From Margaritifera margaritifera (lineage: Eukaryota > Mollusca > Bivalvia > Unionida > Margaritiferidae), in contig JAQPZY010001626.1 in assembly GCA_029931535.1 (NCBI GenBank), forward strand, positions 5,958,843 through 6,022,842: a stretch of 64,000 nucleotides of DNA. The letters are read 5' to 3'. The notes under the pieces were generated by a model. That model saw nothing but the letters and a program-made list of their open reading frames with translations. It was not told where the DNA came from and made no database searches. The position numbers and the translations under genes are program-made. Positions 301 through 19,210 of the stretch are shown here, one piece after another; the stretch's first letter is position 1, and every line of letters starts with the position of its first letter.

Positions 301-341
301 ACACATATGTGGCAAATAAGATTTTTCTTTTCTTGGCAATT

Positions 342-364
342 GGTCGGCTCTAAAAAGGGCCGTT
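342..364 (-). terminator. Histone-type 3' stem-loop, gene B
   Basis: On the minus strand the sequence is AACGGCCCTTTTTAGAGCC followed by GACC. It matches the replication-dependent histone mRNA 3' hairpin: six-base stem arms with one C·A mismatch and a UUUU loop. The stop proposed for gene B at 383-385 is 19 nt upstream. The following DNA (minus strand) reads AAGAAAAGAAAAA, like the purine-rich histone downstream element bound by U7 snRNA. Confidence 0.6.
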
Positions 365-382
365 AGGTTTATGTAGGTACAC

Positions 383-852
383 CTAGAGATGCCCGCACCT
401 CCCAGGTCTAGCCCCACAAGCCGCACACCTCCCACTCCATCTATCTCCACTCCGCCAGGGATCGATGGAGATGGGGAAGGCAGAAGGGGGTTGGGTTGCT
501 TCACTGTCCCAATCCTCTGTGCTTGGGATAGTGAAGATTTGTCTCCTCCTCCTAATTATCCTATGGGCACAGGGGATGCGGTTGTGGAGGCTGATGGGGC
601 TGGGGTTGTGGCTGCGCTGGTTGCTGGGGCTGCTGGAGCTGCGGTCTCTGTTGTTGCGGCGACTGTGGTGGTGTCAACACCATCGGCAGCACCGTGCAGT
701 TAGGCCGCATCATCGGATGTGGCGGTATGGGTTCTTGCTTTTCGTTTTCCGTCTCCTCCTCTTTTGTCTTTTCCTCCATCTCCTCCACTTCCTGTTGGAG
801 GTGTCAGGCTATCTCTAGTTGTACTCTGATCTGATTTTTTCTTTTTGTTCAT
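383..852 (-). pseudogene. Gene B: short Lys-, Gln- and Pro-rich protein, frameshifted
   Basis: Not recognised. The ATG at 850-852 follows a TATA box at a normal distance. The first frame gives a 50-residue product with a basic start (MNKKKKS) and a Gly/Asp/Lys-rich stretch, ending at 700. A second frame, 561 to about 788, is acidic and then Pro/Gln-rich. A third runs to a TAG at 383-385, just before the stem-loop. The simplest reading is one gene of about 150 codons with two frameshifts. Layout and 3' flank match gene A, so the two may be diverged duplicates. Function unknown; a nuclear, nucleic-acid-binding or regulatory protein is only a guess. Confidence 0.4.
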
Positions 853-1000
853 CTTGACGGGTGAATGGTGGTAGCTTGACTGCTGAATGCGTCGCTTTAT
901 ATACTTAAAGCATGGACGTGAAGGAAAACATCCCTCGCACATACATAAAAACAAAACAAACGCTACCGAGCTGACATCATCATTTTGACGTCATTCTTCG
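853..1000 (-). promoter_or_regulatory. Gene B promoter: TATA box and CRE
   Basis: The minus strand carries TATATAAA at 896-903, about 45 nt upstream of the gene B ATG, and a perfect CRE palindrome TGACGTCA at 986-993. The sequence after the TATA box (TATAAAGCG) is shared with the gene A promoter. The CRE is shared with the divergent C/D promoter at the other end of the element. Confidence 0.55.
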
Positions 1001-1274
1001 CTTCGCGGATCCTGCACTGCACCATACATAATAAAAAACACCAAGTACGCGGACCTAAAAGAAAACACTTTTTAATTTTTTTAATTTTTTTTTTTTTAAA
1101 ACACAGACACCAAACACACTCTATACAAAGACACACCACACATACATTCTTTTAGAAGAGAAAGGGATTTTTTTGAGTGGCAAGACAAAGACAAACAAAA
1201 CAAACAAACACTTAACATACAAAGACACTCAATTTTTTGTAGGCAATCCTAGAGTAGTCTTTTCTAGAGATCTG

Positions 1275-1300
1275 GGTGGCCCTGAAAAGGACCGTTGGGG
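1275..1300 (-). terminator. Histone-type 3' stem-loop, gene A
   Basis: The minus strand reads CCAACGGTCCTTTTCAGGGC then CACCCA. Stem GGUCCU/AGGGCC has one G·U pair, the loop is the canonical UUUC, and the 3' flank ACCCA matches the metazoan histone consensus. AGAAAAGA follows about 15 nt later, like a histone downstream element. The gene A stop is 22 nt upstream. The 26-nt core is identical to the one after gene C at 15,445-15,470. Confidence 0.75.
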
Positions 1301-1322
1301 GGTATTTTGATGAGAAGTTTTT

Positions 1323-1706
1323 TTAAAAACTTCTGGCAGCAGGACGGCTATGTTTCGCCACAGGTCTCACCGCTGCAGGACAAGGTCGCTTTCTGGTGAA
1401 AGAGAAGGCAAACTCACAATCCATTCTACAACTGACTTCTCCGTCTTGTTGCTTCAGTTGCTGCAAGTGTTGTTGTTGTTGTAGCTGCTGCTTTTGTTGT
1501 TGTCTTTGCTGCTGCTGAACTCTTTGTCTCTCCTCCCATTCCACTCTGTCCCTGACGATTTCTTCTCGCAAAACTTCTTCCACCTGATCTTGAGCCATTT
1601 GCAAGAAGATCATCGTCTTCTTCTCTGGGTTCTTCTCAAGTAGGTTATGTCTAGCCCGCTGCATATTAACCATTGCTTCATTCAGTTTACTAATTTTAGC
1701 TGCCAT
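1323..1706 (-). CDS. Gene A: 127-aa coiled-coil, Gln-rich protein
   Basis: Not recognised by family. The frame is open from the ATG at 1706. Residues 1-60 are heptad-like (KISKLNEAMVNMQ and on), consistent with a coiled coil. Residues about 68-92 are a Gln tract mixed with Arg, Lys, His and Leu. The C-terminus is basic with Lys-Arg and Arg-Pro pairs. It has its own TATA box and a histone-type 3' end, unlike the core viral genes. Architecture resembles gene C (coiled coil then basic tail). Kapitonov and Jurka described coiled-coil proteins in Polintons (PC1/PC2), but I cannot assign this one to either. Confidence 0.65.
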   Translation of the reverse strand: MAAKISKLNEAMVNMQRARHNLLEKNPEKKTMIFLQMAQDQVEEVLREEIVRDRVEWEERQRVQQQQRQQQKQQLQQQQHLQQLKQQDGEVSCRMDCEFAFSFTRKRPCPAAVRPVAKHSRPAARSF

Positions 1707-1870
1707 GTTCTTGAGATCTTGACGAGTCAACGAGAGTGACTAGACTGACAAGCGCACCGCTTTATATGCTGGAAGCGCGGACGCAATGGAAAACATATCT
1801 CAGATCGATAGAGAGAAATGTGAAAGAGTAGGTATCTCAGATCGATAGAAAGAGTGAAAGATCATATCCA
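1707..1870 (-). promoter_or_regulatory. Gene A promoter with TATA box and duplicated upstream block
   Basis: TATAAA lies on the minus strand at 1761-1766, about 55 nt upstream of the ATG, in the context GCATATAAAGCG, close to the gene B core promoter. Upstream, a block containing tctcagatcgatag occurs twice within 1797-1863. No CRE was seen here. Confidence 0.5.
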
Positions 1871-1956
1871 TTTCATTTTTTTTTCAAATCAATAAACAGC
1901 ACAACACCAATTTTTAAAAAAAATAAACATATTTTAATAGATAATAAGAAGCTCCT

Positions 1957-2556
1957 CTAACACAAAATGCAAATGCCAACTAAACAAACAAACATTTTTT
2001 TGTAAACATGAACGTATTTACAGGGTTGACAATGTTGGGAAGTCAAACTAGACTTCCACTGTTCTAAATCATTCTGTTCTCGATGCACACTACGTTTCTG
2101 AGCTAAAGACAAGAGATAACCATGATGTTCACAAAACCATCTTTCTACTTTGGCATCGTATCTAGCATACTCCCTATCAAAACAAGTCACTAAATGTTCT
2201 AAGCTACATCCGAGACTGCGTTGATGAAGAGCATATTGTCCACACACCATATAATTTGATCCTTGTAATATGGCATTATTGAATCGAGTGTAGACAGCAT
2301 TTCTTCTCATAAAGTCAATGATGTCGTCTTCCAAAGAAGGTAATCCATAAGAATCAAAATATTCCACATTGTGATCGTTGGGAAAGTATACTGCTACCCA
2401 ATGGGTTCCTGGTCGATCACTGTCGTCGGTATTGATGACATAGGCATGAAGGTCTTTAGGTTTGCGACGGGGAAGTTTATCTTTAGCACATAGCACAGGA
2501 TTCCAAGAAGTGTACGAATTGCTAGTCAACAGATAATGAAGTTCCCAGGTATCCAT
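1957..2556 (-). CDS. Adenain-like cysteine protease (PRO), intact
   Basis: Maturation protease of the Ulp1/adenain (C5-like) type that cleaves capsid precursors in adenoviruses and Polintons. The frame is open for 199 aa from the ATG at 2556. The catalytic set is visible: His in THWVAVYF (about residue 52), the acidic residue in FDSYGLPS (about 67), and Cys in MVCGQYAL (about 104), in the expected order and spacing. Length is normal for Polinton proteases. It follows the Cys/His-rich gene by 11 nt. It is the only core gene here with no visible lesion. The C-terminal 25 residues (MFVCLVGICILC end) are hydrophobic and could be read-on past a lost stop. Confidence 0.9.
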   Translation of the reverse strand: MDTWELHYLLTSNSYTSWNPVLCAKDKLPRRKPKDLHAYVINTDDSDRPGTHWVAVYFPNDHNVEYFDSYGLPSLEDDIIDFMRRNAVYTRFNNAILQGSNYMVCGQYALHQRSLGCSLEHLVTCFDREYARYDAKVERWFCEHHGYLLSLAQKRSVHREQNDLEQWKSSLTSQHCQPCKYVHVYKKMFVCLVGICILC

Positions 2557-2567
2557 TTTGTATTTGT

Positions 2568-3060
2568 TCACAGGTAATAATAAGTCATCAATTCACACTT
2601 GACTTTATGCTTGAATCTTTCCGTCAAGTAAGTCCAAGAATCACGACGGGTAGTCTCTGTACTCTGTTGCAAGAGAGCTTCGATGCGTTTGGTCTCCAGA
2701 GAAGTGAGTGGAGGTGAGGAAGAATCCTGCAAGTCTTTATATCACTTCCTCAACACCTTTTCTTCCGAGATCAGAGCCCATTCTTCCTCCAAATATTCGT
2801 CCAATTTGTCTTCTGTAGTCATCATCATACATTTGTCGTGTTGTTTCTGGCTCGCATGATCGATTTGACATCCATGACAATGTTCTCGGATCAGCGTTGT
2901 AATTCTTTCAGCCAATTCCTTAGCACAACAGAAGACTAAATGTTGTTCTTGTCTGGCCATCTACAGGCCATAAATCAAGTAATCTTGGGAACACTACTTT
3001 TCTCTTCTTCTTCTTCTCCACTGGTTGTTTGTGACTGATGTGGTTCACAAAATCCCTCAT
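2568..3060 (-). pseudogene. Cys/His-rich small viral protein, frameshift plus TGA
   Basis: A small protein between capsid and protease that I cannot name. A first frame from ATG 3060 carries a monopartite nuclear-localisation-like run KKKKRKV near residue 20. The reading then shifts to a frame with ATG 2960 that contains a zinc-binding-like block (HCHGCQIDHASQKQHDKC). That frame is stopped by TGA at 2742-2744 but stays open beyond it to TGA 2568-2570. Ser/Thr-rich and charged residues follow. The Cys-x2-Cys, His, Cys arrangement suggests one zinc site. It is probably one gene of about 160 codons with one frameshift and one nonsense change. A 38-aa acidic frame at 2974-3090 overlaps and is not favoured. 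Confidence 0.6.
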
Positions 3061-3101
3061 CTTTTATCTCCATAGGTTCTTCGTGTTGCATCGTTTTTCT
3101 T

Positions 3102-4384
3102 CTAACAGTCTAGAATCACTTCTCTCAAACTGTTGATTTCCAGAGTATTGTCAAATTCTGCATACAAGATGACGTTCACAGTGTTGGCTAGAGCTGTAAC
3201 AAACTGAAGTTCCACACGAAGTTGGCCTGATTTTATAGGAAGAAAATGTCGTTCGTCGCTGTCTTGGTCGGGAGTGAAATCAAATCCCCACAAAGCATAT
3301 ACTCCTGCATAATCCTTGTACGCAATGCCGTGGCTGCTATTGGTGCCCAACTGTCCCGTGGCTTCAAACAGAGTCAAGTAAGATCGCAAGTAATTTCTCT
3401 GGGCAAAGTTAGGTTAAAAAGGTCTGATACACAACGTCTGACCATCTCGATTGACTTCTATCTTAGAGACGTTGACGTGTTGTTGAAACTCGAACGGATT
3501 TTGATCGAATGCTCCATTGAGGGCTGCATTACTGACGATGCCGATCGGCAAACGCTTGGGGAGCTGTCCTTGGAAGACTTGATCCTTTGACTTTGGATCG
3601 GAGTCCAGAGGCAATGTTAAACGTTTTCACTTCCACTCGTCGCACAGGATACTTGGCGGTGGCTCTGCTCAAAGTTTGACTGATGTCGTTGGCCACTTTA
3701 GGTAAGGCTTAGACACGACGCACGTAAAGTCTGGCTTCTTCGACGACGGTTTTGTACTCGTTGGCATTGACCATCAAATGGAAGACCTTTCTGCTGCGAT
3801 TCAGTCTTAGCCGTACATCCACTCCGTCCAACAAATACTTGTCTTGTAACCACATGTCCAAATGCAAACGATCCATCAGTTCTAAAGTGCGCCCTTGTCG
3901 TCATCTGCAGTCACTGCTCCGTCGCTGAACTTTTTCAAAGTGTCAGGTTTCCATACCACAGAAGCATCCAGATGGGTGTTCTTGGCTTCTTTTCCGTAGT
4001 AAGCACAGTAAGGGTAAGTATCCATGCTGCTGCTGACCAGTTTGTTATTTAAGTACAAATCCACTTCGCTGAACAAGGAATGCGTGAAATTATTGACGGG
4101 GGCAACTCTGGCATCGGCATCTGGATTGATGTTGTCCGTTTTGATCACTTTGAGTTTCAGGTACAAGTGGTTGCTATTCAGATCGATGCAATCTCCGGTT
4201 TGTCCTTTCATTTCAAATTCGATAGGAGCTGAAGTCGTCAAGGCCGATACAGGATGAAATTCTACCCATTGGGATTCTTGCATCGTCATCATGATCGTGG
4301 GCATGGCAAACAGATCCAGTTCTGACTTGGTACATTCGCAAGAACTTCTGTGCATCATTTTCAACAGTTGGTATTCAAATACGT
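3102..4384 (-). pseudogene. Double jelly-roll major capsid protein (MCP), several frameshifts
   Basis: The hexon-like capsid protein of Polintons. The N-terminal part (3882-4358) shows the typical opening MMHRSSCECTKSELDL and the conserved VAPVNNFTHSLFSEVDLYLN block of the first jelly roll. The C-terminal part (3102-3389) shows YKDYAGVYALWGFDFTPDQ and ends NTLEINSLREVILDC, matching the family C-terminus. Parts at 3698-3904 and 3414-3614 lie in other frames, so at least two or three frameshifts break it. Total length of about 425 codons is near normal. Homologous reading continues upstream of the first ATG (4358) toward 4384 without an ATG, so the true start is uncertain. Confidence 0.9.
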
Positions 4385-4807
4385 CTAATTCTCTGACCGT
4401 TCTTCTTTTTTATTCTTTTTCTGAACACCGCGCGGTTTATGACCTCTGAAGAAATGTCGACGTCTCTTTCTGCCTTGTACTTGCTGTGTCGTTGTGGAAG
4501 AAGTAATGTCAGGGCTAGAAGTGTGAAGTGAATTTATAGGGGTCACTCGGCGACCCAAAAAATCTTGTCCAGTTTGCAGCAACACATTTAATCCTGCTCT
4601 CATAAAGGCTTCTTTCGGATTTTATTTGTCGATGAGGATGTTTTGAAGAAATTCTTTTCCTTGCGTCCAAGCGGCATCATTTAAGGCATGCAATCCTTGA
4701 GTCACCATGGGTTTCAAGATGGGAGCTACCGTTCGAAAAGCAGATTTTGACATACCTCCTAAACCGTGTCCTCTTTGTCGAGCCACTCCTCGGTACACAG
4801 GATACAT
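4385..4807 (-). pseudogene. PX / adenovirus pVI-like minor capsid protein, one TAA
   Basis: The ATG at 4807 begins MYPVYRGVARQRGHGLGGMS, the characteristic start of the Polinton PX protein, compared in the literature with adenovirus pVI. A hydrophobic/amphipathic segment follows (residues 20-55). TAA at 4622-4624 interrupts after residue 61, but the same frame continues for 78 codons and ends in a strongly basic tail with RKRRRHFFRG, typical of this protein's DNA- or nucleus-directed C-terminus. So it is one gene of about 140 codons with a single nonsense change. It lies just upstream of MCP, its usual neighbour, and its 3' end overlaps the upstream MCP reading. Confidence 0.8.
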
Positions 4808-4815
4808 TTTGGGTG

Positions 4816-5742
4816 TTACAATTCTCTGGAGAACCTTTTTCGAAAATGAATATTTTGTCCCAGATCTCCTTTTATACTAATGTTGACACTGTCAAAATAC
4901 GATTTGCTGACTGGAAGATAATGAGGATGTACAAATTAACGGTGAACGTGATAAGTGTTTCCACCTTCCTCGTACGCAGCGCCGGCAGAATCCACTTTGA
5001 AAGGAATGACTCTCAGTAACGGAGCAGTTGTGTTTCCCACCACGTTGTACTCCACCAGATTGGAGTACACAAACAATAAATTCAGTCCTTCGATCAATTC
5101 GACAGGGTAGCGAAAAAACTTGTAAAATTGATCGTTGTTCTTGATGTCTTTGGTAGAAGTGAGTTTTGTGTTACCACCCAACATGGCAAACAGCTCAGGA
5201 GAAAAATTGATGGACACTATCTTGGCGTCCGAAAAATGGATTTTGAGACGATGCGAAATGGCAATGTACTCGATCAGGACACTTTTCTTTGTTTTGTACA
5301 GGGCTTTGCCAAACTGGTCGTTGAAAATAGCCGCAATGGTGTCCACCAAATGTCGAGCACTAAAATAATAGCCTGCATGAATTCTCATGTGATAGAGACT
5401 GAGATGAGGTTTGGCGTTTCCTGGTTTTTTGGATTCGTAATAACCAGGATCATTGACATCCCGTTGTGCTTGTTGTGACTGTGCGTCGTATATTTCAAGG
5501 ATGGACTGGGTAGAAGATAACCGATGCAACTGTGGTCCACAATTGTTTGTCCCCTTGTTGCAAACTCAAATTGGCAATGGCTGCTCCAATGACACAATAG
5601 ACCACAACGATTTGGCAGAAAAGGACGATTCGATTTTAGGCACACGTTCTCCGCACCACACCCACAAAGGTTGCTTTTGTAATCCTTGAAGAGAAGAACT
5701 CTGCGAAGTAGAAGAGGTAGTTGCTGTTGTGTTGAACGGCAT
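4816..5742 (-). pseudogene. Penton-like minor capsid protein (single jelly roll), broken
   Basis: The Polinton vertex protein. The main frame, 4936-5529, contains the typical HAGYYFSARHLVDTIAAIFN motif and, near the end, LVEYNVVGNTTAPLLRVIP, which is diagnostic of this family. TAA at 4936-4938 interrupts, but the frame continues to 4816 with the expected C-terminal region (GDLGQNIHF). The likely start is ATG 5742 in another frame, with a Thr/Ser/Gln-rich leader, so there is at least one frameshift near 5,560. About 309 codons in all. It lies directly after integrase and 9 nt before the PX-like gene. Confidence 0.85.
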
Positions 5743-5747
5743 GTTGG

Positions 5748-6849
5748 TTACTTCTTCTTTTTATAGTCGACGACTTGGGAAACGTCAATCCAAGAATCCA
5801 AACTAGGTGGATATCCTTTCCAACGCACTTTGACTTCTTCTACTCGACGTTTGCCTACTTTACGTGTTCTTCGTTCGAGAATGCTTTCGATATCGTACAA
5901 GCCGTCTTCTTTTTTGGTCACTCGTTGTAACTCAGGCAAGTAGAAAGTTCCATTGAACACTTCTCCGTGCATGTCTTCCAATTTATAGACGGGAGGATCA
6001 CGTCCTCGCACTGGTCCAGTGACACGAAACAATTCGGTCGTCCAGTTGGGTAAATAACCTTTGTCAAAAGTGCCTTTGTTTTTCCAATGCGAACCCGATC
6101 TCCCACCTTGAGCACCAGGGTTTTCTGGTGTCCAATTTGAGGTGTACCAAACAGTTTATCAAACACTGTCACTTCGTAATTATTCGGTGACCTCTTCGGG
6201 GGCATATCCGATGCTACAATGGTACGATTGATTGTATGCTTTGACCAAACGTGGTAAGACGTCGATGTACTTGAGAGTGTATTTATGTGTACAATATTTC
6301 CAAATGCGTTCTTTCAAAGTTCTTTGAAAAAGTTCCACGACACTGGCTTCAGGATTTTCGGTGGTAAAAAAGTGAATGTGCCTTTTTTTAAAATTCTTTT
6401 TGAAAAGCTTGGTTTAGAAATTCGGTGTCTTGGTCTGTTCGCCATTGTAAAGGATGACGACCACTTTGTTTCATCACAAGTTTAAAAGCGCGTACTAACT
6501 TGGTACTGCTTTTCTAAGTCAAAGGAACGACCTAAGGAAATTTGGAAAACACGTCGATGACACAAAACAAATATTTGTAACCACGATTGTACACTGCCAA
6601 ATGAGATACATCGGCTAAATCTGCTTGCCATTGATGATCGATGCCATCCACTTTGGTTTGACTTCAAGAAAATTTTCGTCGAATGGGTTTGTGTAACGTG
6701 TACGTCGATTGTTCTTGTAACCATCGTCATACTTCTGACAAAAGTGCACTTTTCAATTTGCTTTTAGCAGCCCGATACAAGTTTTGAACTCCTCCGTAAC
6801 CATCAGCATGGGCATTATTGTAGTAAATGCTAGCTAAAGGTTTCTCCAT
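5748..6849 (-). pseudogene. RVE-family integrase with C-terminal chromodomain, degenerate
   Basis: DDE-type integrase that inserts the element. Start taken at ATG 6849. The N-terminal part shows the conserved TYTLHKPIRR block near 6690. The first catalytic Asp lies in HQWQADLADV (near 6630). A TDQDTEF block near 6430 carries the second Asp. NPEASVVELFQRTLKER near 6340 carries the Glu. A chromodomain (YDIESILERR to WKGYPPSLDSW) lies at about 5770-5900. Frames are split: at least four in-frame stops (near 6744, 6664, 6533 and 6507) and at least two frameshifts, near 6380 and 6060. The three catalytic residues are still present, so decay does not seem to target them. Confidence 0.9.
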
Positions 6850-6959
6850 GATACAATGTCACCAACTGTTCGATACCAATTTTGGTGTCGCGAGGTTTGG
6901 ACGAGCCACATGAGTGGATTGTGACGGGGTGATGGTAGGTTTCTTTTTGATGTCTTTTT

Positions 6960-7469
6960 TCAGTCTTGCTTTCTTTCTTTTTTTCTTCTGCTGAACAGAG
7001 AGTGGACATCATCTTTTTTAACCCAAGCTTTCATTTCTTCTCGATGAAGTGTAGGGGAGGGTGTCAACAAGGCAGCTGCAATCTTGCTAGGGATGGGAGC
7101 AGGTGGAGTTTGAAACACTTCTCGGGGCTCGTCTTATTATGTCGTCCCCGTGGCGGTGTCTGCTGTCTTGGTGGTGGTTTCAGGTTTGTGTTTCATCATG
7201 GCTTTGAAATCTCTCAGAGTGGGTTGAGCTGTTTCGTCTACAGCTTTCTGGTGAAAGAGTTGAAGACGTTGCAAGAGTTGACCATACCGTTGCGATCTTT
7301 CTGTTTCTGACAAATCACTTCGATCCATGAGCGATTGTAATTCTTGTTGTAACTGTGACATCTCGTTGAGATTTGGATTTGGAGGTAAATGAGGTATCCG
7401 TTGTTCGTACCAACGATGGAGTTCCATCCATCGTTTGTAAGGAACTAGAGTCAGTTTTCGTCCTTCCAT
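6960..7469 (-). pseudogene. Unrecognised viral protein, tandem TAATAA then basic tail
   Basis: Start at ATG 7469 (MEGRKLTLVPYKRW). The frame is also open upstream of this ATG to about 7557 with a charged stretch, so an earlier start may have been lost. Residues 30-75 are rich in Leu, Gln and Glu (LQQELQSLMDRSDLSETER), suggesting helices or a coiled coil. Two stops in a row lie at 7134-7139. The frame then stays open for about 57 codons, with a Pro-rich segment and a basic end RRKKERKQD. I know LVPY-type proteins between integrase and ATPase in Polintons but cannot give a function; a virion or DNA-binding protein is possible. Confidence 0.6.
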
Positions 7470-7525
7470 AAGATCCAAAGGTACAAGTGGGGTGTCCTTT
7501 TTATCTTCTTTTTTCTGCTCGTCTT

Positions 7526-7710
7526 TTATCTCAAGAGTCCTAACAGCTTAAGAAATTCTCCTAGTTGCACCAGCCTTTTTTTCTTTTGACAACGAGCTAG
7601 TTTCTTCTTTTTGGCCATTGGTCGACGAACAGTCAGATGTTTTCTTATTTTTTTGTTCTGGTTTTGTTTTTCTTGGAACGAGTTGAAAGGTATGTACTTT
7701 TTCGGGTCAT
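7526..7710 (-). CDS. Very small Lys-rich ORFs (possible core peptides)
   Basis: Two short basic frames. ATG 7710 gives 21 residues ending KKNKTRTKK. ATG 7618 gives 30 residues starting MAKKKKLARCQKKKRL and ending LGLLR. Both look like nucleic-acid-binding peptides, comparable only in composition to adenovirus core peptide µ. They may be exposed parts of one frameshifted basic protein. Confidence 0.3.
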
Positions 7711-7773
7711 CTTCTTAGGGCGTCGGGAGCAAAAAAAATAGAACTGAGGTCTCTCGGAGGTCTCACTACTTTT

Positions 7774-8139
7774 TTATACTGAAACAGGTCTCCACCGATG
7801 GTCAGCACGGCGTACCATCTTCATGACAAGCATCACTCGACGTTGAGGTGTTTTAAACGTACTAAATCGTGTCAGTTCTTGTTTGGATAAATCCAGTAAA
7901 CTTTGTAACACGCCAATTTTCTCTTGGACTTTGGTTTTAGTTGAGGTCTCTTTTTTAGCGGCGTCCGCAGTGGCCAGAGCAGACGAAGTAGAAGCCCCCA
8001 GAGTGGTGACTTTCGAAATGGGTTTCCATTTTTGCATCAAATTAGGAAACACTTGTCTTAAATCAGGTTTGACAAGCATCATCACGAAGGGTGAATACGA
8101 AGGAGACGAAGTGGACGGAGGAGAAGGAGACACCGTCAC
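7774..8139 (-). pseudogene. Unrecognised Ser/Pro- and Lys-rich viral ORF fragment
   Basis: An open frame of 121 codons without an early ATG. The first in-frame Met codons are about 20 residues in (MMLVKPDLRQVFPNLMQKW). The N-terminal part is Ser/Pro-rich, the middle is Ala/Thr/Lys-rich, and the end is basic. The upstream DNA (8140-8330) encodes Lys- or Arg-rich peptides in more than one frame, so this may be the C-terminal half of a basic protein. No family recognised. Confidence 0.35.
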
Positions 8140-8648
8140 TGCCCCTCCTGGCTTTTGGGAGTACGTGCGCGTCTTAGCAGTAGTACCTCTCTTTCGGGCA
8201 GCAGATGTGGTGGTTGGATTTTTCTATAAAGGGTTTTTCTTCTTCTTCTTCTTTGGGGATTTCGTCTTAGGGGTTTTTTCTTGGGGATTTTCTCTTTCGT
8301 TTTCATTTTGGTTTGGGCATTAGGATCCCATTGCAAAAGAAAACGAATCATGACACCTATTAAAGAACCACTACCACCAAGAGTCAAAATGATTTATTTT
8401 TTAGTGCTTGGATCGATTCTGGGATCTGCCAGTTGTGACACTTTATGTTTTTCTAAAATACGTTTGGTTTGATCAGGGATGTGAATGATACCTTGAAGTA
8501 ATTGACGTGCTCTCAAAGTAAACCATCGTAACACTTCTTTGAGACTAGTTTCTAACAAATGGGCACGGACTTGTGCACTTTTTTCTCGACTGATGCCATA
8601 CAGGGCACGAATCAATTTGGCAGGAGGATGAGATTGAAAGAAAGTCAT
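8136..8648 (-). pseudogene. Small viral protein downstream of ATPase, one TAA
   Basis: ATG 8648 opens MTFFQSHPPAKLIRALYGIS and gives 84 residues with helical, basic character. It stops at TAA 8394-8396, but the same frame goes on to 8136 with a short hydrophobic stretch (LGGSGSLIGVMIRFLLQW, possible membrane segment) and then a very Arg/Lys/Pro-rich tail. It sits 57 nt after the ATPase, a position where Polintons often keep a small structural gene. I cannot name it. The 84-residue part is confident as coding; the extension is plausible. Confidence 0.55.
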
Positions 8649-8705
8649 CTCGAAGACTGTGAGAAAGAAATGACGCGGTGGATGTTTTAATAGATCTTTC
8701 TTCTT

Positions 8706-9478
8706 TCAGAGAATGTCCGAAGGATACGTGTAAAGGACGGGACCTCCATCTTGACACCAATGGTGAATTAATTGGGTACGAAATCTCAAATACTCGGGAG
8801 TGGTAGGTTTTAAGTCGATGGAGTAAATACGCATGAGGTGTTTGAGTGGCATCGTCGTCCGCATAATTAAGCCAAGGAGTGCCTAACTGTTTGGCTAACA
8901 CATGAACTTGAGATTTGTCTCTGGGGCTTTTAAACAACACCACGTAATGGGCGTTGAGACTGATGGTATGATGGGCTTTACTTTGTTGAAATAAATTTTG
9001 AGTAATGTAAATGATGCCTGCATTACGATGATGTCCTTTTCGTGTAAACCAAAGTTTTATTTCTTCTTCGTCTCCTCCTAACATGTCGTCCACGATGACC
9101 AGATGTGTTTGACTCGTCAGACACGATCCGATCATCTTCGTGAGGGATGCCTTCCACAAACGAAATGGCTTCTCCTTGACTTTCACGAAGTAACGTGTAA
9201 GACGATTACCACTCTTTGTAACACCACACGACACTTTGAAGAGGACAATCAAACAAATGAGATTTCTCTTCGATCTAACGTTTGATAAATTCAGTTTTGC
9301 CTGAACCACTCGATCCAGCAATCAACATGTTAAATGGATGGCGCAAATATAAAGCTTCCCAACTTTGACGATCTAACTTTTCGATAATCACTTTGACCAC
9401 AGAAGAAGAGGCAGCAGAAGATGCAGAAATGACTGAGGTAGGGAGAATTTTGAGCTGAACACGAAAGACACAAGACAT
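8706..9478 (-). pseudogene. FtsK/A32-type genome-packaging ATPase, broken
   Basis: The packaging ATPase of Polintons and related viruses. Start at ATG 9478 (MSCVFRVQLKILP). Walker A AGSSGSGKTEF lies near residues 54-64. TAG follows four codons later (about 9282) and TAA about 20 codons further on. A second frame carries Walker B THLVIVDDMLGG and the sensor-like block IIYITQNLFQQ with HTISLNAHYVVLFKSPRDKS, all typical of the family. Near 8,835 the frame changes again, and the conserved C-terminal reading ends at TGA 8706-8708. About 257 codons overall, normal for this enzyme. At least two nonsense changes and two frameshifts. Confidence 0.9.
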
Positions 9479-9539
9479 TTTATACCTTTTATACACGTTT
9501 AATGTTTAAAAAAAACAACAACAAAAACATTTTTACAGG

Positions 9540-9700
9540 TCATGAAGCACGAAAACTCATACAGGAAAAATGGTGAGGTACAACAATAAGGCAACCACTA
9601 AAAGAATCAAAGGTTGGTATAAACAAATCAATGTACAACAACCATAGTTCCGATGGAGGTGTGTCGTACGAAATTCGTGTACACGCACTAGTGTTCTGTC
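9540..9700 (-). other. Possible small membrane-protein ORF between ATPase and next gene
   Basis: One minus-strand frame encodes a Leu/Val/Ile-rich segment (PLILLVVALLLYLTIFP) preceded by a short Cys/His-containing stretch. It could be a single-pass membrane peptide, but no good ATG precedes it and it may be chance. Confidence 0.2.
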
Positions 9701-10458
9701 TCTGTTGTGGAAGAATGGAATGTCTTTGACGGAAAGGTTGTTTGTTCCTCAGGTGTTTCTATTGGTACGACGATGTTGTCTTCTTCTTCTTGAAGTTCGA
9801 GTGTCATTGTTAACTTGGGTTCCAAGTTCAATTTTTGTCTTGGAGAATTAATGACGCGCAAGGTTCTTGACAAAGAAACCAACACTTTTCCTGCCACGTA
9901 CATCTTCCCAATCGTAAAGTTGTTGGTGTAACCAACCAGCGATGCAGACTTCTTGGAAAGTTTGAAGTGTAGATAAAGTTTGACAAATGTCTTCTTCACA
10001 CGGATGTACACAGCTGGTGTTCATCACGATTCTCAACACTTGGAGCACAATTTGTCTTTCATGCGCCGATAAAGCGTGAATGGGCATGTCTTTGTTGCAT
10101 GTACCGTTCATTAAAATAATCCACCGTTCATTAAAATAATCCACAACAAATACTTTTCCTCCAATATAGTCCACAACGAATGTCCTGGGAAACGAAATCC
10201 AAGAAAAGTGGTCACTAACAGACACACCATAGCGTCCAAAATTCAATGAAAACAGTTCCTGTATCAGTCTACTCCAAGGCAGCTGCGATAGTTTCTTCCA
10301 AGAATCAGTCTTCTTATACTGTGGAAGTAACAATAGTTTAAAAATCGAGAAATGACTTTGAGTTTGCGTTTCACTTGTATCTTGACAAACTCTCTGTAAA
10401 TGCGTTCTCGCAGATACGGAGGCAAACAACGAATGTACTCTTTTAAAGTATCCGACAT
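9688..10458 (-). pseudogene. Unrecognised viral gene with 20-bp duplication and frameshifts
   Basis: Not recognised. ATG 10458 lies 4 nt after the BIR1 stop and opens MSDTLKEYIRCLPPYLRERI. The reading then moves to another frame (9848 to about 10,310, including DHFSWISFPRTFVVDYIGG and HALSAHERQIVLQVLRIV), and finally to a third frame ending EETEH-like at 9688. Within it, accgttcattaaaataatcc is repeated in tandem at about 10,103-10,142; a 20-bp duplication changes the frame, so it is a visible cause of one break. About 250 codons. Hydrophobic and charged segments alternate; no motif that I can name. Confidence 0.5.
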
Positions 10459-10461
10459 GTG

Positions 10462-11106
10462 TTACTTCTTGGGACCGACCAAAGGTAGGTACTGACAGCG
10501 CGGAGACCATCTGACATGTAGCAAGTAAGCTGAGTCTTTATACTCCCATTCGTAAAGCGTCACACCGCAGCTGAAACACTGGACTTTATCACCTTCTCAC
10601 AAGTAGATAAACCCGGCACTGGCTAAAGCTTTGGGAGTAGGTCCTTGCAGATATTTAGGCCACTTATCTTTGAACGTCTGGAATCGACTTTCAAAGTCGC
10701 AGTAGTCAGGCAAAGCCACAGGCAACATGTATACTTTGTCAAAGTTGGGATGGCATCCGCAGGTAGGTACACGCTTATCATCCCTAATAAAGAAGAAAGG
10801 GCGTCGTGCTGCATTGCTTTCGCTAGTGTGGCGGCAAGGCACACGAACGGCATCACTTTTGAGGGTTCCAGAGGAGGAGCGACAAGGTTGTGCTGCATCG
10901 CTGATGTCAAAGCGTACGTCATCCGTCTCGTCGCAAGGCACTGCATCGCACTCCAGGTCGTGATCGCACTTGGAGTCCATAGTAGGTCCTTAGCTCGCTG
11001 GTTGTGTCGAGTTCGTCAGCATCGGTGCCTGTATACTGGTCTCTGCATTGAACGTGAAGTTCACAGTGAGTTCCTCATTCGGGGGGTGTGTGGCATTAGT
11101 ATTCAT
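10462..11106 (-). pseudogene. BIR1: IAP-like gene with one baculovirus-IAP-repeat domain
   Basis: The second of two tandem BIR genes. ATG 11106 opens a frame that meets TAA just before another ATG at 10980. From 10980 the protein has an acidic/Cys-rich leader, then the BIR start YCDFESRFQTFKDKWPKY and AGFIYL. A TGA follows, at the place of a normally conserved glycine. The same frame continues with CFSCGV and ends HVRWSPRC, the zinc ligands Cys-x2-Cys and His-x6-Cys, stopping at TAA 10462-10464. No RING finger is encoded. BIR proteins of viruses and animals bind caspases or IAP antagonists, so an anti-apoptotic role is a reasonable inference. Two nonsense changes make this copy a likely pseudogene. 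Confidence 0.8.
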
Positions 11107-11121
11107 CTTCTTCTTGCTCGG

Positions 11122-11496
11122 TCAACGTTTGGAGTCACAATAAATGGTTGGTCTTGGAAGTTGTCCCCTTTTTATGCTGGAGAACTGTGGAAACACAAAA
11201 GAAAGGTAACCACAGTTTGGAGTCCTTATGGTATTTTCCAGGATAACTGAATCTTTATAGTCCATACGAATGGTTACACTACAACTGAAACACTGCACTT
11301 CGCTTCCCTGTCCAAAGTAGATAAATTCTGCTCTGGCTAAAGAGTTGGAAGTGGGTAATCCATTCCTATGTTTAGGGCATTTTTTGAACGTATTCAATCG
11401 ACTGGCAATATCACAATAGTCAGGCAAGACAACGGGAAGTTTGTATACTTTCCACTAGAATTCTGCACTGGGTTCATCACACGGTGTTGAAGTCAT
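11122..11496 (-). pseudogene. BIR2: IAP-like gene, degenerate BIR lacking the zinc His
   Basis: ATG 11496 lies 3 nt after the polymerase stop. A TAG (near 11,457) interrupts after 13 codons. The frame continues LPVVLPDYCDIASRLNTF, closely matching BIR1 (LPVALPDYCDFESRFQTF), so the two are tandem duplicates. CFSC (first zinc pair) is kept, but the His of His-x6-Cys is Asn (NTIRTPNC), so zinc binding is probably lost. The stretch between the BIR start and CFSC is also divergent (KKCPKHRNGLPTSNSLARAE). It ends at 11122. No RING domain. Confidence 0.7.
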
Positions 11497-11498
11497 CG

Positions 11499-14400
11499 TC
11501 AATCTTGGTGGGTGTCTGTTCTAGTGAAGATCGTCGTGTCCTTACAGCAAAGTGGTGTGGTCTCGAAGTCGCACTCGTTTCTGGTACGGTACACAATTTG
11601 GTAAACTTTTTCTAAAGGGCGACTGACGATTTGGTAATTTGGTAACCATACGATTTTGTGTTGTTCTAAAGTTTTCACTCGAAAGTGTTGAGCTTGTCCA
11701 GACTGTAAAGCATTTTTCAAGACATCAAAGTTCACCACTTGGCTGGTTTGAGAGTTTTGTGTTAATCCTTTGACTTTACATTTGGTTTGAAGTTGGCCTT
11801 GTCTGTCTCGGTATCGGTACCCGTAATTTTTAGGACCACCGCTGACAAGACAGAGGATCGTTTCTTGAGGGTGCTCGTCCGTCCATGCTCTTAACTGATC
11901 TCCTTCGATGGTTGGGTGTGGGCAACTGGGGCGATGGATGTACATACAACTGTCGGTGTCAAAGTACAGAACACGATCTCCCAACACTTCTAAAGCCTCG
12001 TCGTACAATTTCAAGCGAGCATGGGCTTTCACGTAGGCTGCTATGACCACATTGCTAAAGTCGTCGGGGTGTACAAACTTGGGTTCTTCTTCGTAATTGA
12101 TCAAGATCAAATCTTCGCGGATGATTTCTACGTGATTCACTAGATTACCTTTGTCGTCCACCAGTTGAAAGTAGCGGCTGGGATCTAGCAAGTATTCCGT
12201 CTTGGGCAAGATCGTACGTTGTGCCATTTTTCCCCACAAGCAATTCAACATGACTTAGGCAAACGATCTTCCTCCTTCGTTCTTTTCTACGTCTTCCAAA
12301 GTGATGCCTTCTATGGCACGGTACCGTTTTTTGAATTGGACTTGGTCTTTTGGCGTCCGACACCAAGAGGGATATCCGCTGGTTTCTTGTTTTGGTTTGA
12401 GAAATTCGTTGACGTAGCCTGAGAAAATGTCTGGATTGCGGGCGTCGTCCTTTTGGCATTGTGCTGACCCACGTTCCTGTCAAAGCGCGTTCTTCCTCCG
12501 TGTGGTGACATGGGTGATCTTGGTTGCATGTTTCGGCACACGTACCGCATAAAGGAAACATCGTTTTCCTTGGCAATGATGGGGTAAGATAGGATGGAAC
12601 ATGTTGGTCGGGGGTAAGACTTTGCATTTGATCAATCCTTCGAATCGACGAATGTTTTCCACGTCGATGTGTTCTGTCAGGATTTCAGGGTGTTCTGTAA
12701 GAAATCGCTTGTATTTACACAAACAAATATACAACGAACACACGTCAATGTATTTGATTTCTTCTCCTCAATATTTTTCGTCGACTTCGTACAGCAAACG
12801 CGTGGCATTGGTTCGTCCTCCAAACAAACTGTAGCGTGATCCAAAGGTTCTATGTCGACCACGTCGTAACTCTCGGCAATACGTCTAAAGCCTGGATCGG
12901 TTTTGAAACGTCGATCGTACTCGTGCTCCCCTATTTCTACCACATGGTATCCTTGACTTTCTAACTTCAGACGTCGTTGGTAGATGTGTTTGTACAACTC
13001 TTCCATGGTGATGTCTGAAAAAAGGACTTTTCAGGTGTCGTTGAGGAAAACAAGTAAGGCATCTGTGAAATAAGCATCCCTGAAATTCGTACAACTTCTG
13101 AGGGTTTTCTAAATCCCAACCATCCACAGAAAGACTGCCTATTTTTTTTCTCCCCACCCATCCGTTTCTGGCATGTCGTATCAATTTGTCTTTCTTTTGG
13201 CACAAGTAATGCAACCAACACAATACTTTGGCAGAGTATTGACGACTGGCCGAGAAAGAAGTGTTAGGGTCTATGATGGCTAGTTCGTTCTCGGGCATGA
13301 ACGTTTTGGTGTACACTAATGTAAAGGCTTGGGCTAGGGTGCACGCTTCCTTCAAAGGATCGACTTCTCCGTGATCTAGAAATAATCGTCGAAACATTCC
13401 ACAGAACGGCATAAAATGTCCACATCGGATCGGCAATACTTTAATATTTCTTCTTGAAAGTCAAACGGTTCTGAAGCGTGAGCGTGGTATCAAGTGTGGA
13501 AGGCTTCTCGGTGTTTGGTCGGCATTCCGTCTGGGACGTATTAGTGCACGTGAGGCAAATGCGGCAGCACTAGGTGTTGATTGGTTTCCGTATTAAAGAA
13601 GTGGGGAAAATATCCTTTGGCCACTTTTGTCATTCCAAATGTTTTAGGCATTCGACTATAAGGCAAGGCCAAATAACTCATGGAATCTTTGAATTGTACT
13701 TGTCCCACTTGCATGTAGATGAGTTTGGCTCCGTTCATGGTGACTTTGGGGCATTCGGTACCTTGTTCTGAATAATATTTTAGCAGAAACTGTCCATCGT
13801 ATCCCGAGAATTTGTGAGCCATGATGGTAGCAAAGCGATGACAGTCCCCGTAACGTTGAATGTCCTCTTCGCTCCAAGTATCGTCGATGGGGACTAAAAT
13901 TCATTGGGGTAAAATCGGGTAGAGTGTTGGCGCCACGACATATTTTTTCACGTCCTCCTGGAATCCTACTACAATGAGGACAGTAAAAATGATTAGGTTC
14001 TTGAATTCACTTCTCACATGCCCGATTAGCGACGCAGAAATTAGGGATGTAAATGCCCGTCTCTTGCATGCATTCAAAGTCAAAAATGATGAAATACACT
14101 TTGGTCTTGTTCTTCTTGGTTTCACCCTTTAATTCTTTCTCCAGTGTATTGTCGTATTTTTGAATGAAACATTGATGATCATAATCCACGATTTGGTCAC
14201 AAATGCGGCATCTTTTCTTTCCGGCACAAACGTGTTTCTTGTGGTCGTTGGTTCAAATAAGTTGTCCACACCTGGAGCACAATCTCAATAAGTCACAAGC
14301 ACTTTTTTGCTGATGACCTTGTGTCCTGCGATGTTGTTCGTAACAAGCGGGACTGACAAAAGTTCGTCGACAAGTCGAGCAATGCACGTGTTTTTCAGGA

Positions 14401-14800
14401 AGGCATGGTGCGAAAGCTAAACAACCCCGACATTTCTCTGCACAATGAATGTGTTTGTCCCGATTACAAAATCCTTTGTCACATTTCTCGCAGTAGTATG
14501 AGTATCCAAGAAATCCTGTGATATTCGTGATGGCATCAAACTGTTCTTGATGATAATACACGTGAATATATTTTCCCTCCGGGAATTCGTGTCCTCGAAA
14601 CAGCAGAGCTCCGCGAACTTCTTGAGGGTGTACTTTCAAGGTGTAGCGAGGAGCCAAGACGTCTTGAAGTTGTTGTATTTTAGAAATGCCACACATGGTC
14701 TCTTTTGGTATGCCTGCTTGTTGTAACAGGAGTGCTGCTTCTTTTCTTTGTTGGGGTGTCTCCGATTGTCGAATGCTCTTCCACCTTAAACCAGTGAAGA
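11499..14800 (-). pseudogene. Protein-primed family B DNA polymerase (PolB), multiply broken
   Basis: The Polinton replicase. The N-terminal region (14,250-14,800) shows SIRQSE, a YCEKCDKGF block and several Cys/His pairs. The exonuclease region includes AHKFSGYDGQFLLKYY (near 13,790). A palm region has MLNCLWGKM (near 12,240). Motif C YFDTDS lies near 11,960, and the C-terminal part 11,499-12,251 is fully open for 250 codons. Lesions: TGA near 14,250, a frameshift near 14,020, stops near 13,541 and 13,491, a frameshift near 13,400, further shifts near 13,020, 12,800 and 12,430, and TAA near 12,255. The N-terminus is short: the usual 100 or so residues before SIRQ are absent, and a zinc-knuckle ORF on the other strand fills the adjoining DNA. 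Confidence 0.92.
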
Positions 14801-15240
14801 TGGAAGAGCCAAGACAGATCGCCTTTGTGGTTAGAGATTTACAGAGAGTGCTTGGAAAGTATACCACTCTCAGTACGACAAAGGACTACTCCTCTATTGC
14901 CTCTCGAGATAAAAGTCAAGATACTTGCTATATCTGCCAAGAGAAAGGACATTGGGCTCCAGAATATCCACAACGTCAAAACCAGAGAGACAAAGGGAAA
15001 GATACCTGTTATCATTGTCAAGATAAAGGACATTGGTCTTCAGAGTGTCCTGAGAAACAAGAGAACAAAAACCAAGAGAGGGAGGAAGCAGAGGGATCTT
15101 CAGCACCAGAAGAAGAAGAAGAACTAATCCTCGTCGTTTAGAAAGGCAAGAAGGCCAGACGACTGGAAGACAGTGAAAAAGAAGAAAAAGAACCACTGAT
15201 ACCTGTGAAGAAATTCAAGAAAAAGAGAGACAGGCAGTGA
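14800..15240 (+). CDS. CCHC zinc-knuckle protein with in-frame TAG and basic tail
   Basis: The only clear plus-strand gene in the core region. ATG 14800; 113 codons to TAG 15139-15141, then the same frame stays open for 32 more codons to TGA 15240. Two Gag/CNBP-type zinc knuckles, 23 residues apart: CYICQEKGHWAPEY, where the fourth ligand is Tyr, and CYHCQDKGHWSSEC, which is intact. An acidic stretch follows (EEEEE). The part after the TAG is strongly basic (KFKKKRDRQ). The surrounding Lys/Glu/Gln-rich linkers resemble retroelement Gag or CNBP-like single-strand nucleic-acid-binding proteins. It could be a captured gene or the remains of an inserted retroelement. It replaces the expected polymerase N-terminus. 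Confidence 0.6.
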
Positions 15241-15281
15241 ACAATGAACTTGAGTGATGTGTCATGAAATGTTCATTGTGC
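15240..15281 (+). terminator. 9-bp stem hairpin after zinc-knuckle gene
   Basis: acaatgaac at 15,241-15,249 is the inverse of gttcattgt about 20 nt later, directly after the TGA. It is not of histone type. A role in 3' end formation is possible but unproven. Confidence 0.3.
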
Positions 15282-15444
15282 TTTTTAAGAGAATATACCA
15301 AAATGGAAAAAAGTAAGTGTCTTTTGGTTTTGATTTTTTAGAGTATGGACGCACGCACACACTCACTCCTACACAAACCAAGGATGGGATTTTAAGTTTT
15401 ACTTGATTTTTGACAGCGAGATTCTTTCTTTTCTAAGAAATATA

Positions 15445-15470
15445 GGTGGCCCTGAAAAGGACCGTTGGGG
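15445..15470 (-). terminator. Histone-type 3' stem-loop, gene C
   Basis: The 26-nt core is identical to that after gene A (1,275-1,300): stem GGUCCU/AGGGCC with UUUC loop and ACC flank. On the minus strand AGAAAAGAAAGAA follows, a very good match to the purine-rich histone downstream element. The extended gene C reading stops at TAA 15480-15482, only about 10 nt upstream. Confidence 0.75.
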
Positions 15471-15479
15471 TGTTTGTTT

Positions 15480-16154
15480 TTAACAAACCTTTGGACTGGA
15501 CATAATGAGCTTTAACTGTCTCAATCCCTTTCCACGGCCAAGTCCTACTCCTCCTCCTCCTCCTCCTGCTTTGGTAGTGGTGGTAGTAGTAGTAGGCAAT
15601 AGTGGTGGTGGTGGTGGTGATGGTGTTAACATCTCAGTAATAGTAGTTATGGGCTTAGAATGTTTCGCCCGTGATAGTCTCTTTCTCTTGGGTGGTGTTA
15701 AAGAAATCTATTACATGTTTCTCAGATGTTTTAACTCTCCTAAAATGTCTTGTAACAAACTCACCGTTTTGTTTCCATCACTCCCTTCCTTCTGTCCTTC
15801 ACACTTCTCTTCTAGCTTTCTTATTTCTTCATCTTGCTTTCTTCTTTCCTCTTCTTGCTGAAGAACGGCTTCTTCAGCTTCTCTCTGACGCTGTAAAAAT
15901 GTTTCCAATTCTTCCTTTGGTCTCTTTTTAAAATCATCGATCACAGGTAAAGATGGTGGTGGTGGTGGTGGTGGTACAACAGCGGTTGTTGTTTCAGGAA
16001 AAATTTCTTGCGATGACAGAAAATCCACAAAATATAAATTAAAATATTCTGTTTGAAATTTCACCACTGCATTGGCCGTCGTCGTACTCTCACTCCGAAT
16101 ATAACTTTCCGTCGTCGGCTCACACCAATACATTGACTTCGTTGTATTAGCCAT
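15480..16154 (-). CDS. Gene C: Pro-rich coiled-coil protein, possible NLS/Gly-rich tail after TAATAG
   Basis: ATG 16154 (MANTTKSMYWCEPTTES). 147 residues to TAA 15711-15713: a Thr/Ser-rich N-terminal region, a short polyproline run (about residues 60-67), then a long charged coiled coil (EELETFLQRQREAEEAVLQQ and on). TAA is followed at once by TAG. The same frame then stays open to 15480 with a basic NLS-like run (PPKRKRLSRAKHSKP), a polyproline/Thr stretch and a Gly-rich basic end. That end stops just before the histone-type stem-loop, which argues that it was once part of the gene. Not recognised; the layout parallels gene A. Confidence 0.6.
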
Positions 16155-16379
16155 ACTCAAACTATGCCGCAAAAGGTAAAACCATACGAAATTAGTGACA
16201 ACTATATACTGAAGATGACGTCAGCCCCCCGCTCTCTTCCTATTGGAAGAGAGACTCCCCCATGTTGTAACGCGCGATTGGATTGGTTGTTCATTTCGAT
16301 CCGTTTCAATCCGCTCTTAGGATATATATATATACCACCGCTTTTGTCACATAGTTTCACCGGTTTTGAAGACCAGAAG
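16155..16379. promoter_or_regulatory. Divergent promoter of genes C and D: two TATA boxes, CRE, CCAAT boxes
   Basis: Towards gene C the minus strand has TATATAG at about 16,203-16,209, about 50 nt before its ATG. Towards gene D the plus strand has a TATA run at 16,321-16,335, about 45-60 nt before its ATG. Between them lie a perfect CRE TGACGTCA at 16,216-16,223 and ATTGG (inverse CCAAT) motifs near 16,242 and, as a pair, near 16,275-16,285. Head-to-head layout with TATA and CCAAT boxes resembles paired replication-dependent histone genes. Confidence 0.6.
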
Positions 16380-16613
16380 ATGTATACCTCTGTTGAATCT
16401 TCGAACATCGTATCGGGGATGCTGTTCAATCCGGACTATCAGATGTATGTGAAAGCATCATGGGCGATCACCAAGATCACAGCTACAGAGGTGTGGAAGA
16501 GAAGGATCTATATACAGAGACAATGCTGCCTGAAGCGTGTATTGATTTACAGTCCTGAAGTCCGTCGAAGTTTAAGGAGAAAAAGACCCTCCACGAGGTG
16601 TGATCTGTGTTAA
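16380..16613 (+). CDS. Gene D: 77-aa protein with basic C-terminus
   Basis: ATG 16380, stop TAA 16611-16613, fully open. Not recognised and not a histone in any frame. The N-terminal half is neutral (MYTSVESSNIVSGMLFNPDY); the C-terminal half is basic (VWKRR, RRSLRRKRPSTRC). It has its own TATA box, shares the CRE/CCAAT region with gene C, and is followed 18 nt after the stop by a histone-type stem-loop. It is transcribed outward toward the right end, mirroring genes A and B at the left end. Start chosen for its spacing to the TATA box. Confidence 0.55.
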   Translation: MYTSVESSNIVSGMLFNPDYQMYVKASWAITKITATEVWKRRIYIQRQCCLKRVLIYSPEVRRSLRRKRPSTRCDLC

Positions 16614-16630
16614 CTTGGTTCACACCACTC

Positions 16631-16656
16631 CAACATCCCTTTTAAGGGCCACCCAC
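16631..16656 (+). terminator. Histone-type 3' stem-loop, gene D
   Basis: The plus strand reads CCAACATCCCTTTTAAGGGC then CACCCA. Four perfect pairs plus one G·U, with a mismatch at the stem base, loop UUUA, and canonical ACCCA flank. CTAGAAAAGA follows about 10 nt later. The DNA to 16,700 is the inverse of 1,230-1,275 at the left end. Confidence 0.6.
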
Positions 16657-18145: not shown

Positions 18146-18147
18146 TC

Positions 18148-19124: not shown

Positions 19125-19133
19125 TATATATAT

Positions 19134-19210
<77 letters not shown>

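Follow-up and report, generated by a model that had tools for sequence, protein, structure and literature searches.

Short end genes of a multicopy Polinton family in Margaritifera margaritifera carry a histone-type regulatory envelope

The 64,000-nucleotide (nt) stretch of Margaritifera margaritifera DNA analyzed here, referred to below as the window, starts within, or close to, the left end of a decayed Polinton of ~16.7 kb (taken as 16.75 kb in the Markov controls). This element is a member of a multicopy family whose four to five short end genes, each consisting of one open reading frame (ORF) where intact, are enclosed in a histone-gene regulatory envelope of varying completeness. The anatomy of this envelope, its recurrence over element copies and gene families, and its match to the H1, H2A, H2B, and H3 genes of the host are evident from the data presented below. 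Judging from the sequence, the end genes, designated g1 to g5, are very likely to be expressed via the replication-dependent histone pathway, that is, to be transcribed in S phase, processed by SLBP and U7, and left without poly(A). The initial annotation of the window had proposed such host SLBP/U7 processing and non-polyadenylated, S-phase-timed mRNAs, and this interpretation is supported by sequence-based checks that extend well beyond the window.

Histone-type 3' ends of the end genes

The window copy contains four of these genes:

383-855, minus strand: g1 gene, frame-shifted, with its open pieces in different frames and the stop at 383
1323-1706, minus strand: g2, an ORF of 127 amino acids (aa), Gln-rich, with a basic C-terminus and no histone match
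15480-16154, minus strand: g3 gene, split between two frames (15711-16154 and 15480-15707)
16380-16613, plus strand: g4, an ORF of 77 aa with a basic C-terminus

An Rfam scan of window positions 1-20000 in the E-value mode, with the gathering score of RF00032 (Histone3) being 34, returned matches to this family at all four places where the initial annotation had seen histone-type hairpins:

15424-15468, minus strand: histone-type 3' end of g3 (RF00032, 32.6 bits, E = 4.7e-6), with the stem at 15448-15463, ACCTA, and AAAAGA at 15427-15432
1253-1298, minus strand: histone-type 3' end of g2 (RF00032, 31.1 bits, E = 1.9e-5), with the stem at 1278-1293 (GGTCCTTTTCAGGGCC, fold of -8.7 kcal/mol), ACCCA, and AAAAGA at 1258-1263
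321-366, minus strand: histone-type 3' end of g1 (RF00032, 17.0 bits, E = 3.2; exact IUPAC consensus), with the stem at 346-361, a UUUU loop, one C-A mismatch, and AAAAGA at 326-331
16630-16675, plus strand: histone-type 3' end of g4 (RF00032, 17.0 bits, E = 3.4), with the stem at 16635-16650, ACCCA, and AAAAGA at 16665-16670

Thus, the window has two strong hairpins and two that are weak, with mismatched stem pairs, and individually insignificant (E of ~3) but correctly placed; none of the four reaches the gathering score of 34, the best being at 32.6. The g2 and g3 stems have all six pairs paired and a UUUC loop, and the g4 stem, which is identical to that of the near-copy L085, has its two basal pairs mismatched and the upper four kept. 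The hairpins flank the core of the decayed element at both ends, as had been noted from the sequence; RF00032 has no match in the core itself (2227-14822) and none up to an E-value of 10 in window positions 16700-64000. The exact consensus GGYYYTTHTNARRRCC occurs at three sites in the 64 kb, namely, 346-361, 1278-1293, and 15448-15463, all on the minus strand and all inside the element, versus a mean of 0.009 and a maximum of 2 per 16.75-kb element in 1500 first-order Markov runs. A looser hairpin pattern with up to two mismatches gave 14 matches versus 10.7 expected, which is not above chance; the signal thus owes its strength to the exact matches and to where they are placed.

The placement in the window follows that of histone genes. 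The stem begins 16 to 29 nt past the stop (measured from the ORF ends, with g1 and g3 being frame-shifted in this copy), which is close to the 10 to 25 nt given in the initial annotation. The purine-rich tract reported after the hairpins proved to be AAAAGA beginning 14 to 15 nt past the stem at all four ends, and the TATA boxes ascribed to these genes correspond to TATA-like sequences upstream of all four. The stop codons that closely precede the hairpins of g2, g3, and g4 lie partly or wholly within another inverted repeat (at 1313-1334, 15472-15488, and 16597-16626, respectively); the position is shared and the sequences are different, with the g4 repeat being weaker than some of its shuffled versions.

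A search of the 2.45-Gb host assembly with RF00032 gave 75 scored matches from 508,685 first-look candidates, which is a lower bound. All 75 pass the Rfam cut-off, and all of these sites (73 loci) were mapped individually: 38 are on g5, 29 on g4, 7 on g1, and the remaining one on a g4-like remnant (L069; 15 aa, E = 0.002), with no histone gene among them. In the hairpin census, which covered 72 loci and only those hairpins that are followed by AAAGA (rows without it, such as the L077 g4 hairpin, were excluded), 114 of the 116 hairpins could be assigned, 41 to g4, 40 to g5, 15 to g1, 14 to g3, and 4 to g2, leaving over the second hairpin of L040 and that of L069. The assigned hairpins are on the sense strand, with medians by family of ~17 to 33 nt past the stop of the open frames. 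In all three of the other copies examined, polymerase B (74 to 80% identical) and a zinc-knuckle ORF (70 to 77% over the longer segments) adjoin the g3 end, so that the end genes are Polinton genes in those copies too. In L021, a long and almost perfect inverted repeat that contains ACGTCA motifs (positions 2460-2550) was seen by eye just outside the last hairpin, that of g5, with a tandem repeat further on; the inverted repeat is perhaps an element end or a nested element.

A sample chosen by protein alone came from a search with g4. Of its 4966 candidates, 150 were scored as relatives, with 77 to 100% identity and with the window copy among them, and the best 30 were fetched; the number of first-look candidates gives only a rough hint of the copy number. 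A recognizable hairpin was present in 25 of the 27 protein-chosen g4 loci with a readable ORF (the ones without it being L102 and L111), and all six standard pairs are kept in 15 of these 25. Conservation in this sample is 0.85 to 0.91 in the stem and loop, compared to 0.75 in the 3' untranslated region before them and 0.55 beyond (means that include L102 and L111), and 0.66 in the downstream element, partly owing to its shifting distance. The protein-chosen g4 copies are those nearest to the decayed window copy, so some decay of their hairpins is to be expected. Together with the 74 of 75 scored genome matches that fall on g1, g4, or g5, these figures bear out the conservation of the hairpin in related copies that the initial annotation had suggested looking for.

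For comparison, the tandem histone arrays of the host were located with PF00125, and 3' ends were read for five H3 loci, three H2B loci, and one locus each of H2A and H1. Their stems (GGCCCTTTTTAGGGCC, GGCCCTTTTCAGGGCC, GGCCCTTTTAAGGGCC, or GGTCCTTTTCAGGACC) are the same type of signal as those at the element ends. AAAAGA is found 14 nt past the stem in all five H3 and two of the three H2B ends; the H2B end of C528 has GAAAGA at that place, and H1 and H2A have AAAAGA and AAAAGG, respectively, each one place later. Among the 91 distinct element ends (rows lacking AAAGA being excluded), AAAAGA starts 14 nt past the stem in 82 and 15 nt in 8, and the stem is directly followed in 78 by ACCCA, the sequence after which major cleavage has been reported (PMC6303110). 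Two flavors of the downstream element are also shared: CAAGAAAAGA, the commonest one in g1, g4, and g5, is that of host H3 in C528 and C1339, and CTAGAAAAGA, seen in most g3 ends, half of the g2 ends, and the window g2 and g4, is that of host H2B. In a single Rfam run on 14 sources, the 15 element matches scored 25.0 to 45.8 bits and the seven host H1, H2A, H2B, and H3 ends scored 34.2 to 40.6. The end genes are therefore like metazoan replication-dependent histone genes in the stem class, the loop, the position of AAAAGA, the short distance from stop to stem, and the short ORF, and are unlike them in that none of their products is a Pfam histone and that they reside in a mobile element. The host has an SLBP gene (E = 2e-14).

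A third sequence shared with the host, TTGCC, lies past the downstream element. Counted over distinct ends, its distance from the stem is 33 to 36 nt in 14 of 15 g1 ends, 34 to 36 nt in 37 of 39 g4 ends, 34 to 39 nt in 34 of 37 g5 ends, and 26 to 28 nt in 9 of 10 g3 ends; in the host, it is at 34 nt in three H2B ends and at 35 nt in H2A. In the window, it is present at g1, g2, and g4 but not at g3.

Promoters and products of the end genes

The H2B promoters of three host arrays contain a 23-nt sequence, TGTTTTCCATCACGTCCGCGCTT (motif A, also written TGTTTTCC-TCACGTCCGCGCTT), that is identical in all three and is followed by CATTTCGATCCG (motif B; one letter off in C528) and then by CATATAAATA. 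Variants of motif A with 3 to 4 mismatches are present near host H2A and upstream of H1. In the window, the only sites with up to three mismatches to motif A lie a short way before the TATA boxes of g1 and g2, and motif B precedes g4:

908-930, minus strand: motif A in the g1 promoter, 3 mismatches of 23 (TATA at ~896-901)
1773-1795, minus strand: motif A in the g2 promoter, 2 mismatches of 23 (TATA at ~1761-1766)
16292-16303, plus strand: motif B in the g4 promoter, exact (TATA run at ~16323-16335)
16155-16379, no strand assigned: divergent g3/g4 promoter with CCAAT/ATTGG boxes and TGACG/CGTCA

In the copies with at least 600 nt of upstream DNA, and with up to three mismatches allowed in motif A and one in motif B, motif A was detected in 33 of 40 g5, 9 of 10 g1, and 1 of 29 g4 promoters, and motif B was detected in 23 of 29 g4 promoters and in 22 of 27 among the protein-chosen g4 copies. 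The control consisted of 1000 Markov kilobases, of which the best had 6 mismatches to motif A and none contained motif B. A TATA box is found 34 to 65 nt before the ATG in 24 of 29 g5 copies, at ~50 nt in 7 of 8 g3 copies, at 51 to 78 nt in 25 of 25 g4 copies, and in only 1 of 7 g1 copies. CCAAT boxes are present in the divergent g3/g4 promoter in all copies with a readable start (25 of 25 and 8 of 8); in the host, they occur in the one H3 promoter read and are absent from the H2B promoter of C642. The end genes thus resemble replication-dependent histone genes also in the near-start TATA box of most g3, g4, and g5 copies and in the H2B motifs of g5, g1, g4, and the window g2, and this sharing of H2B promoter motifs would fit S-phase timing at the level of transcription.

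The products of the end genes had been described as unlike histones, and Pfam indeed found no histone among the window pieces (part of g1, g2, part of g3, and g4) and nothing over the cut-off for five intact proteins (g1, g3, g4, and two g5). No relatives of g4 or of residues 1-62 of g2 were found among 5.8 billion proteins in a search based on shared 5-residue words. Relatives of g1 with open frames (six ORFs) encode 87 to 93 aa and end in GRCPHL, and those of g3 comprise three single ORFs of 195 to 205 aa. Median dN/dS values are 0.12 for g4 (318 pairs, whose selection by protein similarity depresses the value) and, from open frames only, 0.24 for g5 (24 pairs), 0.24 for g1 (15 pairs), and 0.30 for g3 (6 pairs), so that these ORFs look like real genes under purifying selection. 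Basic tails are seen in g4 and the window g2, and g3 has the basic stretch KRKRPSRAKH. At the C-terminus of g3 (e.g., in L032, 205 aa), the tail LGRGKGLRQLKLIM is reminiscent of GRGKG, with which histones H2A and H4 begin, a resemblance that may be due to chance. An AlphaFold model of g4 alone (pLDDT of 64, pTM of 0.31) was not used.

Proposed expression via the histone pathway and its alternatives

In the proposed mechanism, host factors that act at histone promoters would transcribe the end genes in S phase, SLBP and the U7 small nuclear ribonucleoprotein (snRNP) would bind the resulting pre-mRNAs, and the 3'-end endonuclease would cleave them after ACCCA. The mRNAs would lack poly(A), would be translated with the mediation of SLBP, and would decay once replication stops, which would make small element proteins abundant at the time when the polymerase-driven replication of the element can proceed.

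Several observations weigh against this assignment. Most copies were picked by their hairpin score, so the quality of their hairpins is a selected property; the scored RF00032 matches in the genome include none on g2 or g3, the hairpins of which were seen as neighbors in matched loci; and of the 15 element matches in the 14-source run, 9 are over the cut-off and 6, including g3, are below it, at 25.0 to 32.6 bits, with g3 hairpins frequently falling short of it. In the protein-chosen g4 sample, the exact consensus within 260 nt past the stop was found in 12 of 30 loci. Covariation in the mixed set is weak, not strong: values as high as those observed were obtained in 23 and 42 of 500 shuffles. 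The window copy has a broken set of core genes and, among its four hairpins, two that are decayed, and an AATAAA lies ~100 nt downstream of the g1 hairpin, so that poly(A) transcripts are possible there. Both promoter motifs are absent from g3 (0 of 14 copies), motif A is missing in the sole other g2 copy with enough upstream DNA, and in 6 of the 9 g1 copies with motif A, the 40 nt that follow the motif contain no TATA[AT]A. The U7 RNA of the host was not found with RF00066 in a search that scored only 65 of 776,085 candidates and is thus uninformative. Finally, RF00032 has no match in eight distant Polinton-type contigs from records of metagenome-assembled genomes (MAGs) (L004-L011, with L012 left out), so that the hairpin belongs to the present family and not to Polintons generally; this sets the family apart from those contigs, in which the g1 to g5 proteins were not sought.

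The same 3' signals might instead serve to produce poly(A)-independent ends and SLBP-dependent storage or translation, e.g., in oocytes or early embryos, with no role in S-phase timing. This explanation gains from the fact that the S-phase timing of the end genes is only inferred, but the H2B promoter motifs shared with the host point to shared transcriptional control beyond 3' processing, and we regard it as unlikely.

Another possibility is that histone flanks captured long ago are simply hitchhiking, with the promoters and 3' ends being functionless relics that spread with the element. Relics of this kind would be host-like in their motifs and 3' ends, as observed, and the similarity of the window g2 and g4 3' flanks over 117 nt (73%), as well as the decaying stems in copies close to the window copy, would be in line with such an origin. 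However, the same kinds of signal are present on gene families with dissimilar proteins, and motifs A and B, which are adjacent in host H2B, are split between element genes and re-spaced relative to the TATA box, all of which argues against passive carry-over. The conservation of the stem and loop above that of their flanks in protein-chosen copies and the apparent purifying selection on the ORFs point in the same direction and make this scenario quite improbable.

The location of hairpins near both ends, with two of them within the inverted 117-nt repeat, could also mean that they work as DNA, in the form of subterminal repeats that serve replication, integration, or packaging. Such a role is very hard to reconcile with the assigned hairpins being on the sense strand shortly past the stop, where their spacing and downstream element are those of host histone pre-mRNAs, and with the orientation of the window hairpins, which tracks the gene rather than the element end. 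Chance or a compositional artifact, to which the two individually insignificant window matches and the near-expected count in the looser scan might be ascribed, is refuted by the exact-match statistics, the mapping of RF00032 matches to the same genes genome-wide, and the agreement with host histone genes.

Expression of the end genes via the histone pathway therefore remains the favored explanation, and we are inclined, with some reservation, to a broader view of it. A class of animal mobile elements would run a second, non-poly(A) expression program in a histone cis-regulatory coat consisting of the promoter motifs, the stem-loop, the downstream element, and possibly TTGCC. Its small, often basic-tailed products would be made together with histones and be available at newly replicated element DNA, perhaps to coat or package this DNA or to steer the S-phase cell. 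Their transcripts would be, as far as searched, the first set of animal non-histone protein-coding mRNAs designed to terminate in a histone stem-loop. According to PMC6303110, histone mRNAs alone among the protein-coding messages of animals terminate in a stem-loop instead of poly(A), and among the papers listed by a search of the open PMC literature, none describes 3' ends of the histone type in Polintons or in other mobile elements or viruses. As far as that search reached, the end genes are the first of non-histone type found to carry a histone-gene coat, and the system is a variant of Polinton gene expression. Use of host SLBP by an RNA virus has been described for the frameshifting element of SARS-CoV-2 (PMC12166091); the two cases are alike in the exploitation of SLBP and differ in the RNA and the purpose. 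If the histone-pathway reading is true, the histone 3'-end pathway is open to non-histone genes, Polinton gene expression is tied to the host S phase, and the element family offers promoters and 3' ends of the histone type that occur naturally on other coding regions, which opens the way to direct tests, in an animal genome, of the SLBP/U7 processing of transposon mRNAs and of the timing of element replication.

The Polinton core and related sequences

The element was assigned to Polintons based on homologs of polymerase B, integrase, ATPase, protease, and the two capsid ORFs of the Polinton-type contigs L004, L006, and L007. Its core genes, located by tblastn and partly in different frames, are listed below; the names other than polymerase B follow the gene content usual for Polintons rather than domain hits, and Pfam named no core gene among the window pieces.

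2227-14822, minus strand: Polinton core, broken in places (tblastn with L004, L006, and L007 proteins)
2227-2487, minus strand: protease (tblastn homology)
3117-4364, minus strand: major capsid protein (tblastn homology)
4840-5400, minus strand: minor capsid protein (tblastn homology)
5790-6858, minus strand: integrase (tblastn homology)
8788-9391, minus strand: ATPase (tblastn homology)
11550-14822, minus strand: DNA polymerase B (tblastn homology; PF03175 on many polymerase relatives)
14797-15141, plus strand: conserved zinc-knuckle (CCHC) ORF, running opposite to the core genes

With the Polinton/Maverick class, which we take to include adintovirus-like elements, the element shares a single array of genes for polymerase B, an integrase, a packaging ATPase, a protease, and two capsid proteins. 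Named polymerase relatives among the 120 matches listed come from mollusks (Saccostrea, Haliotis, and Mercenaria), nemerteans (Lineus and Tubulanus), and cnidarians, which points to a probable lophotrochozoan host. The only inverted repeat observed near both element ends (117 nt, 73% identical) coincides with the 3' flanks of g2 and g4, and the left end itself possibly lies outside the window.

A contig scan detected nine Polinton-type loci in MAG records, of which L004-L009 belong to Limnohabitans sp. MAG20; the presence of Polinton-type contigs in a bacterial MAG is probably due to contamination from a eukaryote. Scans of IMG/VR with a polymerase piece, the ATPase, the capsid protein, and a polymerase alignment confirmed no relative. 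Matches to the hairpin pattern in two sets of three IMG/VR contigs were taken as chance; by eye, the ORFs of these contigs are prokaryotic-virus-like or unclear, and one contig, L002, reaches an RF00032 E-value of 0.94.

Between the polymerase and ATPase regions, the element contains a direct repeat (10559-10737 and 11273-11451; 74 to 75% identity, 714-bp spacing). Outside the element, short pieces of a Polinton-type integrase are found at window positions 24801-25233.

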